From contig NZ_AP017312.1 in assembly GCF_002355375.1 (NCBI RefSeq), forward strand, positions 1,071,001-1,135,000: a stretch of 64,000 bases of DNA, read 5' to 3'. Position 1 is the stretch's first letter, and each line of letters starts with the position of its first letter. Shown here piece by piece: positions 3,975 to 44,866 of the stretch. The position numbers and the translations under genes were made by a program. The notes below the pieces were generated by a model. That model saw only the letters and a program-made list of their open reading frames with translations. It did no database searches and was not told the DNA's origin. Origin of the DNA: Aneurinibacillus soli. Its GTDB lineage: Bacteria; Bacillota; Bacilli; Aneurinibacillales; Aneurinibacillaceae.

Positions 3975-4085
3975 CTCTTATCTAGAGAGGTGGAGGGACT
4001 GGCCCGATGAAGCCCGGCAACCCCGCAGTATATTGCGGATAAGGTGCCAATTCCAGCAGGACATTCGGTTCTGGAAGATAAGAGG
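3975..4085 (+). promoter_or_regulatory. SAM-I riboswitch (S box) aptamer
   Basis: The closing helix CTCTTATC/GATAAGAG brackets the S-box core: AGAGAGGTGGAGGGA, TGGCCCGATGAAGCCCGG, CAACC, GGTGCCAATTCC and a final AGCAGG arm. The aptamer lies directly upstream of a terminator and metX, as is usual for methionine genes in Bacillales. SAM binding should stabilise the terminator. Confidence 0.96.
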
Positions 4086-19192: not shown

Positions 19193-20467
19193 ATGTTTAA
19201 GTTCAACGATGAAAAAGGTCAGCTGAAATGTTCATTTTGTGGCAAATCTCAGGATCAGGTACGTAAGCTCGTAGCCGGTCCGGGTGTATATATTTGTGAT
19301 GAATGTATTGAACTATGCACTGAAATCGTAGAAGAAGAACTGGGCACGGAAGAGGAAGTTGACCTCAAAGAAATTCCGAAGCCCAAGGAAATTCGCACGT
19401 TCCTTGATGACTATGTCATCGGCCAGGATGAGGCGAAAAAAGCGCTATCTGTAGCGGTATACAATCACTACAAGCGCATCAATACCGGCTCCAAAATTGA
19501 TGATGTAGAGCTTGCGAAGAGCAACATCCTCATGCTTGGACCGACAGGTAGCGGGAAAACTCTGCTGGCGCAAACAATGGCGCGCATTTTGAATGTGCCG
19601 TTTGCGATTGCGGATGCAACATCGCTTACCGAGGCTGGTTATGTTGGAGAAGATGTGGAGAACATTCTCCTCAAGCTGATTCAGGCAGCTGATTATGATG
19701 TAGAGAAGGCTGAGCGTGGCATCATCTACATTGATGAGATTGATAAAGTAGCCCGCAAATCGGAAAATCCGTCGATTACACGCGACGTATCCGGTGAAGG
19801 GGTACAGCAGGCGCTCTTGAAAATTCTGGAGGGCACGGTTGCCAGTGTGCCGCCGCAGGGTGGACGCAAGCATCCGCACCAGGAATTCATTCAAATCGAC
19901 ACATCGAACATTTTGTTCATCGTCGGTGGTGCCTTTGATGGTATTGAATCGCTTATCAAACGTCGTGTTGGTAAGAAAGTCATCGGATTTGGAGCAGATA
20001 TTGAATCCGGTACAAAAGATATGAAATCCGGCGAGTTCCTGCAAAAGGTACTTCCAGAAGACCTGCTTAAGTTCGGTCTTATTCCGGAGTTCGTTGGCCG
20101 TCTTCCGGTCATTACAACATTGGAACCACTTGATGAACCAGCACTGATTCGTATTTTGACAGAGCCAAAAAATGCGCTTGTTAAACAGTATCAGAAGCTG
20201 CTGGAAATGGACGAAGCCGAGCTTGAGTTTACAGACAGTGCTCTGCACGAGATTGCAAAAGAAGCAATCAAGCGTAACACGGGCGCGCGCGGTCTGCGCT
20301 CTATCATCGAGGGCATCATGCTCGATATCATGTTTGACCTGCCGTCCCGTGATGACATCGTGAAGTGCGTCATTACCGAAGAGACCGTCAAACAAAAGAG
20401 CAACCCTGAGCTGTACAACAATCAGGGCAAAATCGAATCACCAAAGACAAAAACAGCAAGCGCGTAA
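19193..20467 (+). CDS. clpX: ATP-dependent Clp protease ATP-binding subunit ClpX
   Basis: This AAA+ unfoldase delivers tagged proteins to ClpP. The 424-residue protein starts with a C4 zinc-binding domain (CSFCGKS and CDECIELC) for substrate and adaptor recognition, followed by Walker A GPTGSGKT (near residue 117), Walker B IIYIDEID, the pore loop GYVGED, sensor motifs and the IGF loop (KKVIGFGAD) that docks on ClpP. AAGGGGTGAG precedes ATG. The only clear terminator downstream is more than 300 bp away, beyond palindromic element A, so the mRNA probably carries that element as 3' UTR. Confidence 0.97.
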
Positions 20468-20511
20468 TTGCAGCATAGTTTTTTAAGAACGAGATCAGCG
20501 AAATGTAGTGG

Positions 20512-20718
20512 GGGAGCAGGGAGAAGAGAAGTGCGTCACTTCTTTATGTGCTACAAAGAAGCGATAACTGGTCGCTCCAGGAGTCCGGCAGACTTGCCCG
20601 CAAAGCGCAAGCCAGGGCAGCTTCACATAGAAGCCTGCGGGCAAAAGCTCGTCTGCCAGCCCCCTTCCACTGGGCGAGCACATAAAACAGTTCCTTACTT
20701 TCTCTTCTCCCCGCTCCC
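20512..20718 (+). repeat. Long palindromic element A (about 207 bp)
   Basis: The ends form a 19-bp inverted repeat with one mismatch (20512-20530 against 20700-20718). Inner helices are TTTATGTGCT 20543-20552 with 20677-20686, GGCAGAC 20587-20593 with GTCTGCC 20651-20657, and TTGCCCGC 20594-20601 with GCGGGCAA 20637-20644, leaving a loop of about 35 bases. On the plus strand it is homologous to the minus strand of element B at 20888-21093, with the central 65 bases matching at 52 positions without gaps. It lies between clpX and its terminator. The open frame across it (20468-20836) has no ribosome site and is probably not coding. Confidence 0.85.
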
Positions 20719-20787
20719 AACACAGTTTGCTGTCTATTTCCTTAAAAACTTACGCTTCAACCTTATGCAAGAAGAATCAAAGAAGAG

Positions 20788-20824
20788 AAAAGCGTCCCAT
20801 CGCATGTGGGACGCTTTTTTTCTT
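20788..20824 (+). terminator. Terminator downstream of clpX and element A
   Basis: AAAAGCGTCCCA at 20788-20799 pairs with TGGGACGCTTTT at 20807-20818, followed by more T residues. It lies between the two palindromes, 321 bp after the clpX stop. Confidence 0.93.
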
Positions 20825-20887
20825 TTGTTTTTATAAAGCAAAAGCATATGTAAGATGTGCTTAAAATGGAAGTGAACAAAGTTACGT

Positions 20888-21093
20888 TTGGAGCAGCGGA
20901 GCGGAAATCAGGGAACGCCTTTACGCGACTACATAGCGGAGGAAGAACGGTAAACGTGCCTTTGCCCGCAATCTTCTAGGAGAAGCTTCTCTGGCCTGCA
21001 CTTTGCGGGCGAGTTTACCGGGCTTACGGAGCGGACAGTCTCTACTTCTTGTAAGCGTAACAAAGTGACAGGATTTCCGCTCCGCTGCTCCAA
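20888..21093 (-). repeat. Long palindromic element B (about 206 bp)
   Basis: The ends are a perfect 22-bp inverted repeat (20888-20909 against 21072-21093; core GGAGCAGCGGAGCGGAAATC). Inner helices are GGTAAAC 20949-20955 with GTTTACC 21013-21019, and GCCCGCAA 20964-20971 with TTGCGGGC 21003-21010, plus an apical CTTCT/AGAAG hairpin. It is a second, inverted copy of the family represented by element A, 169 bp away. It lies outside the clpX terminator and upstream of the lonB promoter. No transposase and no obvious target-site duplication were seen. Confidence 0.85.
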
Positions 21094-21153
21094 TCACCAT
21101 ACTTAGTCTGGCTACCACTCTTTTTTAAACTGGCACCACACATAGCTCACTCC

Positions 21154-21232: not shown

Positions 21233-22915
21233 ATGAACTGGACAATAATATTCACGCTTATTCAGGTGTTTTTTGCCGTGATTATCGGAACATACTTCTG
21301 GAACTTGCTGAAAAACCAGCGCAATAACAAAACAACAATTGATCGGGAATCACGCAAGGAGATGGAGCAGTTACGCAAGCTTCGTTCGATTTCATTGTCC
21401 GAGCCGCTTGCTGAGAAAACGCGCCCGGCAAGCCTTGCCGATATGGTGGGCCAGGAAGATGGCATTCGTGCGCTACGTGCCGCCCTGTGTGGGCCGAATC
21501 CACAGCACGTACTGATATATGGTCCACCTGGTGTCGGCAAAACAGCGGCCGCCCGTGTCATTCTGGAAGAAGCAAAAAGACAACCTGGATCTCCATTCAC
21601 ATTCGAATCGGTCTTTACCGAACTTGATGCGACGACAGCTCGATTTGATGAGCGTGGCATCGCTGACCCGTTGATTGGCTCTGTGCATGACCCAATCTAT
21701 CAAGGGGCTGGCGCGATGGGACAGGCAGGGATTCCGCAGCCGAAGCCGGGAGCTGTGACCAAAGCACACGGTGGAATACTATTTATTGATGAGATCGGGG
21801 AGTTGCATCCGATTCAGCTAAACAAATTACTGAAGGTGCTCGAAGACCGGAAAGTAGTGCTTGAGAGTGCGTATTACAGCGACGAGAATCAGCAAATACC
21901 GAAGCACATTCATGATATATTCCAGAATGGCTTGCCTGCTGACTTTCGTCTGGTTGGTGCGACGACACGGACGCCGGAGGAATTACCACCTGCCCTTCGT
22001 TCTCGCTGTCTCGAAATTTTCTTCCGTTCTTTAACGCAGACCGAAGTGGTTGAAATCACTAGAAAAGCCGTAAAGAAAATGAAGATGGACGCAGACGATA
22101 CAGCGATTGCGTATTTATCTCACTATGCGACAAATGGACGGGAAGCTGTTAACATGGTACAAATTGCGGCTGGCTTGGCCATTACCGAGCAACGTTCATG
22201 CATTACGCGTTCTGATATCGAATGGGTAGTAAACAGCAGTCAGAAATCACCACGATCTGACAAAAAAGTGCTCGGTGGTGCGTATGTCGGGTTCGTAAAC
22301 GGATTGGCTGTATACGGTCCGAATATGGGAGCACTGCTTGAAATTGAAGTAACGGCGTCCAAAGCAACAGTACCAGGTGCAGGAACGGTAACGGTAACCG
22401 GAGTCGTCGATGAAGAAGAAATGGGAGGTAAGGGGCGGACGTTACGCCGTCGCTCCATGGCACGAGGTTCTTTGGATAATGTGCTTACGGTATTGCGTCG
22501 CTACGGGATCGCTACGCATGATTATGTTTTGCACGTTAACTTTCCAGGAGGTGCACCAGTAGACGGCCCTTCAGCGGGCATTGCAATGGCTACGGCAATT
22601 TATTCGGCGATTACTGAACAGCCGGTGGATAACTATGTGGCGATGACTGGTGAGATCGGGATTCATGGAACGGTGAAGCCTGTCGGGGGCGTGGCGGCTA
22701 AAGTTGAAGCAGCTCGCCATGCCGGTGTGAAAAAAGTGCTTGTGCCAAAAGAGAACTGGCAGGATATTTTTGCAGCGATGAAAGACATTCGTGTGATTGC
22801 AGTTGAACAGATGGAGGATGTATTCAAATATGCGTTTATACCACAAGAACAGATGGAATCCGCAGAAGTCCCGTTGCTTCAGCCGAACGAAGTGTTCAAT
22901 CCTCCTGCCTTTTAG
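21233..22915 (+). CDS. lonB: ATP-dependent protease LonB (forespore type)
   Basis: LonB is the shorter, membrane-anchored Lon homologue, forespore-expressed in Bacillus. The 560-residue protein has an N-terminal transmembrane helix (about residues 4-22, IIFTLIQVFFAVIIGTYFW), an AAA+ domain ([24 protein letters not shown]) and a C-terminal Ser-Lys protease domain (GPSAGIAMATAIYS, with Lys in KKVLVPKENW or the preceding GGVAAKVEAA helix). ATG 21233 is set by GGGAGG. A putative sigma-F promoter lies upstream. lonA follows, as in B. subtilis, but with its own vegetative promoter. Confidence 0.95.
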   Translation: MNWTIIFTLIQVFFAVIIGTYFWNLLKNQRNNKTTIDRESRKEMEQLRKLRSISLSEPLAEKTRPASLADMVGQEDGIRALRAALCGPNPQHVLIYGPPGVGKTAAARVILEEAKRQPGSPFTFESVFTELDATTARFDERGIADPLIGSVHDPIYQGAGAMGQAGIPQPKPGAVTKAHGGILFIDEIGELHPIQLNKLLKVLEDRKVVLESAYYSDENQQIPKHIHDIFQNGLPADFRLVGATTRTPEELPPALRSRCLEIFFRSLTQTEVVEITRKAVKKMKMDADDTAIAYLSHYATNGREAVNMVQIAAGLAITEQRSCITRSDIEWVVNSSQKSPRSDKKVLGGAYVGFVNGLAVYGPNMGALLEIEVTASKATVPGAGTVTVTGVVDEEEMGGKGRTLRRRSMARGSLDNVLTVLRRYGIATHDYVLHVNFPGGAPVDGPSAGIAMATAIYSAITEQPVDNYVAMTGEIGIHGTVKPVGGVAAKVEAARHAGVKKVLVPKENWQDIFAAMKDIRVIAVEQMEDVFKYAFIPQEQMESAEVPLLQPNEVFNPPAF

Positions 22916-44584: not shown

Positions 44585-44829
44585 TGCATGTAAAGTGAAT
44601 ATGCATTAGGTGTTGAAGGGGAAGAGTATATCATGATGCCATACCAGAGAGCGGACCAAAGGTGGAAGGCCGCATGGATGTAATGATAGAAGGTAGCCCT
44701 GGAGCCGTGTGCCCGAACGATTCGAGTAGGGCATACCGGGTTTTACCCGTTATCGTAATGTAAGAGAGTTCGCGTGCTTGAACATGTACAGGTGTTGCGC
44801 GAGCTAACAAAGGTGGTACCGCGAGATAC
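44585..44829 (+). promoter_or_regulatory. T-box leader of valS
   Basis: The leader carries a stem I with CAGAGAGCGGACC and GGTGGAAGGCCGC arms and a likely GTA (Val) specifier at 44680-44682, followed by AGGTAGCCC stem structures. The diagnostic T-box AAAGGTGGTACCGCG is at 44809-44823, just before a terminator. Uncharged tRNA(Val) should pair with the specifier and the TGGT bulge to prevent termination. The first base is approximate. Confidence 0.95.
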
Positions 44830-44866
44830 GCTCCTCGTCCTTTGCAGGATGAGGGGCTTTTTTATT
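44830..44866 (+). terminator. T-box attenuator terminator
   Basis: GCTCCTCGTCC at 44830-44840 pairs with GGATGAGGGGC at 44847-44857, followed by TTTTTT. It competes with the T-box antiterminator. Confidence 0.93.

Follow-up and report, generated by a model that had tools for sequence, protein, structure and literature searches.

The region between clpX and lonB of Aneurinibacillus soli carries two elements, A and B, of a repetitive palindromic family, and on balance we think it probable that these are non-coding, non-autonomous, MITE-like elements that target terminator hairpins and are moved in trans. What is new is how large and widely spread the family is, together with its terminator-hairpin target, its IS1182-family partner in one genus (g50), its convergent doublets, and its conserved core. 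No description of the family was found in the open-access literature searched. The window is the 64,000-nucleotide stretch of DNA that was analysed, and the genome from which it comes is referred to as G000.

Elements A and B and the extent of their family

The features of the clpX–lonB region are as follows; R1 is the covariance model described below, and G006 is the nearest relative.

19193–20467, plus strand: clpX, the upstream gene (open reading frame; Pfam zf-C4_ClpX and AAA_2)
about 20477–20762, plus strand: element A, the full extra stretch that is missing from the clpX–lonB gap of G006 (L352); limits set by eye
20543–20690, plus strand: conserved core of A (R1, 119.6 bits, E 4.3e-28; A is among the 44 sequences that built R1)
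20789–20821, plus strand: terminator-like hairpin and T-run 3' of clpX, between A and B (from the sequence; counterpart at the same place in G006)
about 20823–21152, minus strand: element B, the full extra stretch that is missing from G006 (L352); limits set by eye
20916–21061, minus strand: conserved core of B (R1, 130 bits, E 8.5e-31; B is likewise among those 44 sequences)
21233–22915, plus strand: lonB, the downstream gene (open reading frame, start at the second Met; Pfam Lon_C and AAA)

The best named match of LonB, with records very near the window excluded, is from Ammoniphilus (72% identity). The initial annotation described A and B as homologous palindromes in inverted orientation, with a 19-bp terminal repeat containing one mismatch in A and a perfect 22-bp repeat in B, and this description holds. 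The arms of A (20512–20530 and 20700–20718) are 19 nt long and 95% complementary, while those of B (20888–20926 and 21055–21093) are 39 nt long and 79% complementary, with the outer 22 nt perfect. The inverted repeat spans most of the length of both elements, which fold far better than their dinucleotide shuffles (z = −7.7 for A and −5.8 for B). Plus-strand A and minus-strand B are identical at 137 of 203 aligned positions, with a score of 58.5, compared with 6.5 or less for 500 palindrome-preserving shuffles of B and 6 for the opposite orientation. The similarity is real, and chance palindromes are ruled out. The limits given at first, 20512–20718 and 20888–21093, enclose only the inner parts of the elements, since the comparison with the empty site in G006 shows that the full elements are longer.

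Only short open reading frames without evident meaning overlap A and B, and the elements, with a length of 265–290 bp, contain no transposase gene. No target-site duplication was seen around A and B. Because the clpX terminator sits between them and has a counterpart in G006, they are most plausibly two separate insertions flanking one terminator and not a single unit.

A blastn search of this genome with A gave 40 matches. R1, which has 149 positions, was built from 44 of 46 oriented copies from G000 and G006, with the incomplete L021 and L039 excluded; it gave at least 150 matches in the 4.1 Mb of G000 and 89 in G006. A second, broader covariance model, R2, was built from 47 diverse cores and found matches in all 11 genomes of the organism's own family (f1; 2 to at least 129 matches each), in none of four genomes of another family of the same order (f2), and, within the class, in 69 of the 398 genomes sampled, representing 29 of 145 genera. 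In a phylum-wide draw, one of 398 genomes was positive, namely this one. Since the sequences behind R2 came from G000, G002, G003, G005, G007, G008, and other positive genomes, matches in those genomes arise partly by construction; G001, G004, G006, G009, and G010 of f1 contributed no sequence. All R1 and R2 copy numbers are minimum values, and across species within one genus they range from 2 to at least 150. With abundant copies in the genome, further copies in relatives and other genera, and the alignment score well above that of shuffled palindromes, the proposal of a defined element family is substantiated.

No R1 copy was found near lonB in 80 named relatives, with the proviso that R1 misses diverged copies. 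Three queries of plasmid records and one of phage records gave no family match at the sensitivity used, so that a plasmid- or phage-borne element was set aside at that sensitivity. Comparison with Rfam, which the initial annotation had proposed, gave no match at A or B at the gathering thresholds. Among 15 loci with copies, searched with E up to 5, there were chance-level matches only, one of which overlaps an element (E 1.1). A known riboswitch or sRNA is ruled out because no Rfam family matches A, B, or the copies at these loci above the gathering threshold.

Two further observations were made in these searches. Elsewhere in the window, Rfam matches a lysine riboswitch (1602–1791), a SAM riboswitch (3975–4084), and a T-box leader (44604–44845), and at 585–684 of L005, on the minus strand (near 4.05 Mb of G000), a guanidine-I riboswitch scores 59.4 bits against a gathering threshold of 63. 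The top R1 copies listed for G000 and G006 are absent from the first ~0.35–0.48 Mb and the last ~0.3–0.6 Mb, with the exceptions of a G000 pair near 4.05 Mb found by blastn and some R2 copies nearer the start; should the origin lie at the start of the assemblies, this gap would be an origin-proximal depletion.

Empty sites, target hairpins, and a probable IS1182-family partner in genus g50

The LonB of G006 is 98% identical to that of the window over 200 residues, and its clpX–lonB region (L352) retains the terminator while A and B are both missing. Other sites in G000 were compared with syntenic G006. At L228, a single 285 bp element, with a possible 7-base repeat flanking it, lies inside a terminator T-run and has no counterpart in G006; a G006 counterpart is likewise missing for the stretches at L229 (655 bp) and L232 (511 bp). 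At L231, a 730 bp composite is found where G006 carries another terminator stem-loop. The 611 bp insert at L233 is missing from G006, yet its right end is retained there, and the G006 counterparts of L203 and L230 (L313 and L326) are deletion derivatives in which only the palindrome arms are left. Thus, some of the differences between the two genomes are losses in G006.

In more distant relatives, degenerate core-like stretches in both orientations were recognized by eye between the clpX terminator and lonB, at the position that B occupies in the window, in G002 (L360), G003 (L355), and G005 (L357). Those of G002 and G005 entered R2, so that the R2 match at this place in G002 arises by construction. 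No such stretch was seen by eye in the gap of G001, G004, G007, G008, G009, or G010. Given this mixture of relatives with and without degenerate stretches, the site looks either repeatedly used or old and repeatedly lost.

Direct repeats were clearest in genus g50 (G204 and G240), where 15 of 17 copies lie between repeats located 58–69 bp to the left and 55–59 bp to the right of the core. Thirteen of these 15 repeats outscore every one of 400 mismatched-flank controls; comparison with shuffles identifies 13 of the 15 as hairpins, and several are followed by a T-run. A sequence of the TGTAGACAAA type is found at each end of the g50 elements. In G054 (genus g28), two tandem copies share a common 52-base repeat, consisting of a hairpin followed by CAGCATGTAGACAAAG, and in G212, four of six copies have repeats of 8–11 bases at matching distances, each within the control range. 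A clear target duplication was absent from all eight copies in G213, G186, and G249 (also g28), and from the tested copies of G107, G036, G050, G195, G005, G007, and G008. The search of flanks and empty sites that had been advised gave a divided result, with empty sites in G006, target duplication in g50, weak or no duplication in most of the other genomes, and none seen at A or B.

The genome of G204 also contains IS1182-family insertion sequences of 1546 bp. The transposase at L285 belongs to the IS1182 family (NF033551, 491 bits against a cut-off of 270). The element ends in L249 and L254 agree with the end of this insertion sequence, TCAGCCTGTAGACAAAG, at all 17 of 17 bases, and those in L250 at 16 of 17. 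Four of the six copies of the insertion sequence that were compared lie between duplicated hairpins, while L285 has a 7-base repeat only and the sequence of the sixth, L333, is incomplete. IS1272, a member of the IS1182 family, is described in PMC5678879 as targeting and replacing stem-loops; the insertions seen there were without duplication, and one pathway of the published model duplicates the whole stem-loop. On the basis of the hairpin duplications, the TCAGCCTGTAGACAAAG end shared with an insertion sequence of the same genome, and the IS1272 precedent, we most readily interpret the g50 elements as non-autonomous passengers that travel with IS1182-family insertion sequences.

No IS1182-type gene was found in G000, G249, G107, or G050, all of them element-bearing. 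A protein search of G212 found no such protein, another search gave one match below the cut-off, and G006 has fragments only. Some composites in G000 have outer GGCTGTC hairpins that are similar to the ends of a G005 insertion sequence carrying the IS1182-type transposase domain. A short outer-hairpin motif occurs near 13 of 39 left ends and 15 of 39 right ends in G000, and near both in 8 of 39, against a background of 59 of 1362 windows; we regard this likeness to the G005 ends as suggestive only. At L342 and L343, G005 has a repeated insertion sequence of 1691 bp with CGAGGCCACTGAAAAA ends, which seems to be seated in terminator-hairpin loops and to be flanked on either side by a short repeat of the loop.

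In the mechanism that we propose, an IS1182-type transposase, supplied in trans, would recognize the terminal repeats and attach the element ends at the feet of a terminator stem-loop. Attachment at the 5' feet would copy the stem-loop on both sides, and other outcomes would replace it or place the element in the T-run. In the window, insertion would have taken place immediately 5' of the clpX terminator for A and immediately 3' of it for B. The elements probably owe their movement to hairpin-seeking transposases carried by other mobile elements. Since no source transposase can now be detected in G000, the copies there are probably relics or rarely mobile. Against this explanation, the IS1182-family partner is shown in genus g50 only, and target duplication was not seen in most other genera.

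The family resembles IS1182-family insertion sequences, including IS1272, in its end sequence in g50 and in its stem-loop targets, as well as in the fate of the hairpin, which is duplicated in g50 and replaced at L231 of G000, the latter being a mode described for IS1272 in PMC5678879. The elements differ from them in being geneless and in consisting of one long palindrome with a conserved core, and in that no IS1182 gene was found in the genome of the window.

The core and its pairing

Each element is one imperfect palindrome with a conserved core and strong Watson–Crick covariation. In 96 copies from 40 regions of G000, changes on both sides are found at 16 of 27 base pairs, compared with 7.5 in shuffles, and slid-pairing controls lower the paired fraction from 95% to 34–47%. 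The diverse alignment gives a covariation score of 0.82, compared with 0.21 when shuffled. The stems change across families, but the layout and the unpaired motifs CTGTCCGCTCC, CCGCTGGG, and AAAA persist, and low-copy lineages have the recurrent unpaired motif AAAACATCTGGGTAG..GGAGACA. A subfamily with a nearly constant apical AAAACATCTGGGTAG..GGAGAC (L404, L405, L409, L413, L401, L402, L407, L400, and L403) occurs in G001, G002, G003, G004, and G009, which have 2 to 23 R2 matches each.

Could the core then be a structured RNA with a function, or a protein-bound single strand of DNA, that has become repetitive? Mobility would then be secondary and the core a constant cargo, whose mobile ends may differ by lineage. 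We consider this unlikely, although the recurrence of the core and its unpaired motifs in families with different stems, the covariation, and the convergent neighbors seen repeatedly in several genera are in its favor. Rfam has no match, and wobble pairs are scarce, with 16 G.U among 2427 cells over 26 of the 27 pairs. The one pair column left out of this count (at most 60% Watson–Crick cells), in a two-pair helix, has G.U in 36 of 96 copies. In the diverse set, 23 of 955 cells are G.U. In minimum-energy folds, the share of G.U ranges from 2 in 70 pairs to 8 in 79 for A and B, and from 3 in 36 to 17 in 77 for the three riboregulators of the window. Since nearly all the pairing is Watson–Crick, with few G.U, it looks more like that of a DNA palindrome than that of an RNA, by a modest margin.

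The tests of strand disagree between genera. In these tests of folding energy, mismatches, and unpaired bases, matches shorter than about 120 bases were excluded (4 of 96 in G000). Mismatches are richer in A.C in five of eight groups (174 A.C and 110 G.T in G000) and richer in G.T in the other three (35 G.T and 16 A.C in g28), thus pointing to opposite strands. By folding energy, the minus strand is the more stable one in 97 of 161 copies, and the groups are split. Unpaired A exceeds T on the A strand in seven of eight groups, which counts in favor of an RNA. An initial reading of the minus strand as the RNA strand was dropped because it failed to hold in other genera. The gene context, obtained with a simple ORF caller for 45 resolved single elements, gives 11 sense, 16 antisense, 10 tail-to-tail, and 8 head-to-head, with four unresolved cases and the two-match loci outside these counts. 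Relative to neighboring genes, neither strand is clearly preferred, and the 11 sense and 16 antisense cases among 27 co-directional gene pairs count against an RNA. For the structured RNA named as a candidate at the outset, the conserved core speaks in its favor, whereas the rare G.U pairs, the discordant strand tests, and the lack of a clear gene-strand preference argue against it; an RNA or single-strand role keeps a low probability.

The ends alone would be enough for passengers, yet the core is conserved; it must have some role besides that of the ends, perhaps in extrusion or in recognition of the folded strand. A bolder form of this idea, which we hold only tentatively and think unlikely, gives the core a task of its own as a conserved folded nucleic acid, either RNA or an extruded single strand of DNA; it would be the constant cargo of mobile shells whose ends vary by lineage and which often form convergent doublets at gene ends. 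If true, it would be the bacterial analogue of SINE-like or guide-like RNAs, aboard hairpin-targeting transposons.

Convergent doublets and other bacterial repeats

Many copies in G000 form convergent doublets. Within 420 bp, all 39 neighboring pairs in the fetched regions are plus-then-minus, as are all 20 pairs in the top match list, a set that overlaps the 39. The spacer is 210–212 bp in 18 of the 39 (range 140–236). The 40 regions came from the top of the match list, and many were picked for a visible pair, so the rate of pairs in them is not a genome-wide rate. In other genera, 8 neighboring matches are plus-then-minus, 1 is plus-plus, and 2 are minus-minus. By rough ORF calling, the gene gaps holding the 39 pairs are tail-to-tail in 14 cases, head-to-head in 5, and co-directional in 20. 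At the sites looked at, the elements lie in or beside terminators.

What is the function of such doublets, if they have one? Their regular orientation and spacing, and the prevalence of tail-to-tail over head-to-head gaps, would be consistent with REP/BIME-like sites that are bound by a host protein (of the gyrase, nucleoid, or condensin type) or that act as transcription buffers at gene ends, selected after spreading. Many of the G000 doublets look like copies of one two-subfamily composite in either direction, so their orientations are not independent. Furthermore, species belonging to a single genus differ in copy number from 2 to at least 150, which is unlike an essential site. We therefore think such a role quite improbable.

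REP/BIME and REPIN elements are palindromes found in inverted doublets between genes, and the A/B family is similar in these respects. The family elements are about 265–290 bp long, whereas REPs are 20–40 bp according to PMC3733652. Movement by a Y1 (RAYT) transposase, as for REPINs, would fit the high-copy intergenic palindromes in inverted doublets and is nevertheless highly improbable: a Y1 gene is not consistently present with the family, being absent from 7 of 19 R1-positive genomes, which rules it out as a general partner. The genomes without Y1 include G204, G240, G212, G107, and G054, with 24 to 100 R2 matches, and Y1 is also absent from R2-positive G002.

Bacterial MITE families are usually restricted to one species or genus. 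The A/B family is like bacterial MITEs in being short, non-coding, and high in copy number, with inverted ends and empty sites in a relative, and unlike them in that its core is found in 29 of the 145 genera sampled in the class; a covarying core across so many genera is not expected for MITEs. A further comparison, by description, is with bcr1 of the Bacillus cereus group, an intergenic repeat of 147–167 bp which, like the A/B family, has a conserved structure and a mobile character (PMC2267715), and which is termed specific to that group in the title of a reference therein. Of the three candidates proposed initially, namely a MITE-like element, a structured RNA, and a DNA cruciform or insulator, the MITE-like element is the best supported, by the empty sites and by the shared ends and duplications in g50, with the lack of duplication in most genera as a point against it.

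At least 150 sites of one small element, from a family found in several families of Bacilli and without a match in Rfam, are thus present in a genome of 4.1 Mb. G204 pairs the element with an IS1182-family insertion sequence having the same end, which makes the mechanism directly testable. If hairpin recognition drives the movement of MITE-like elements of this kind, it would link terminators to genome plasticity. The 3' ends of operons would then gain a mobile, structured neighbor, and annotation and RNA-seq analysis should account for these elements.
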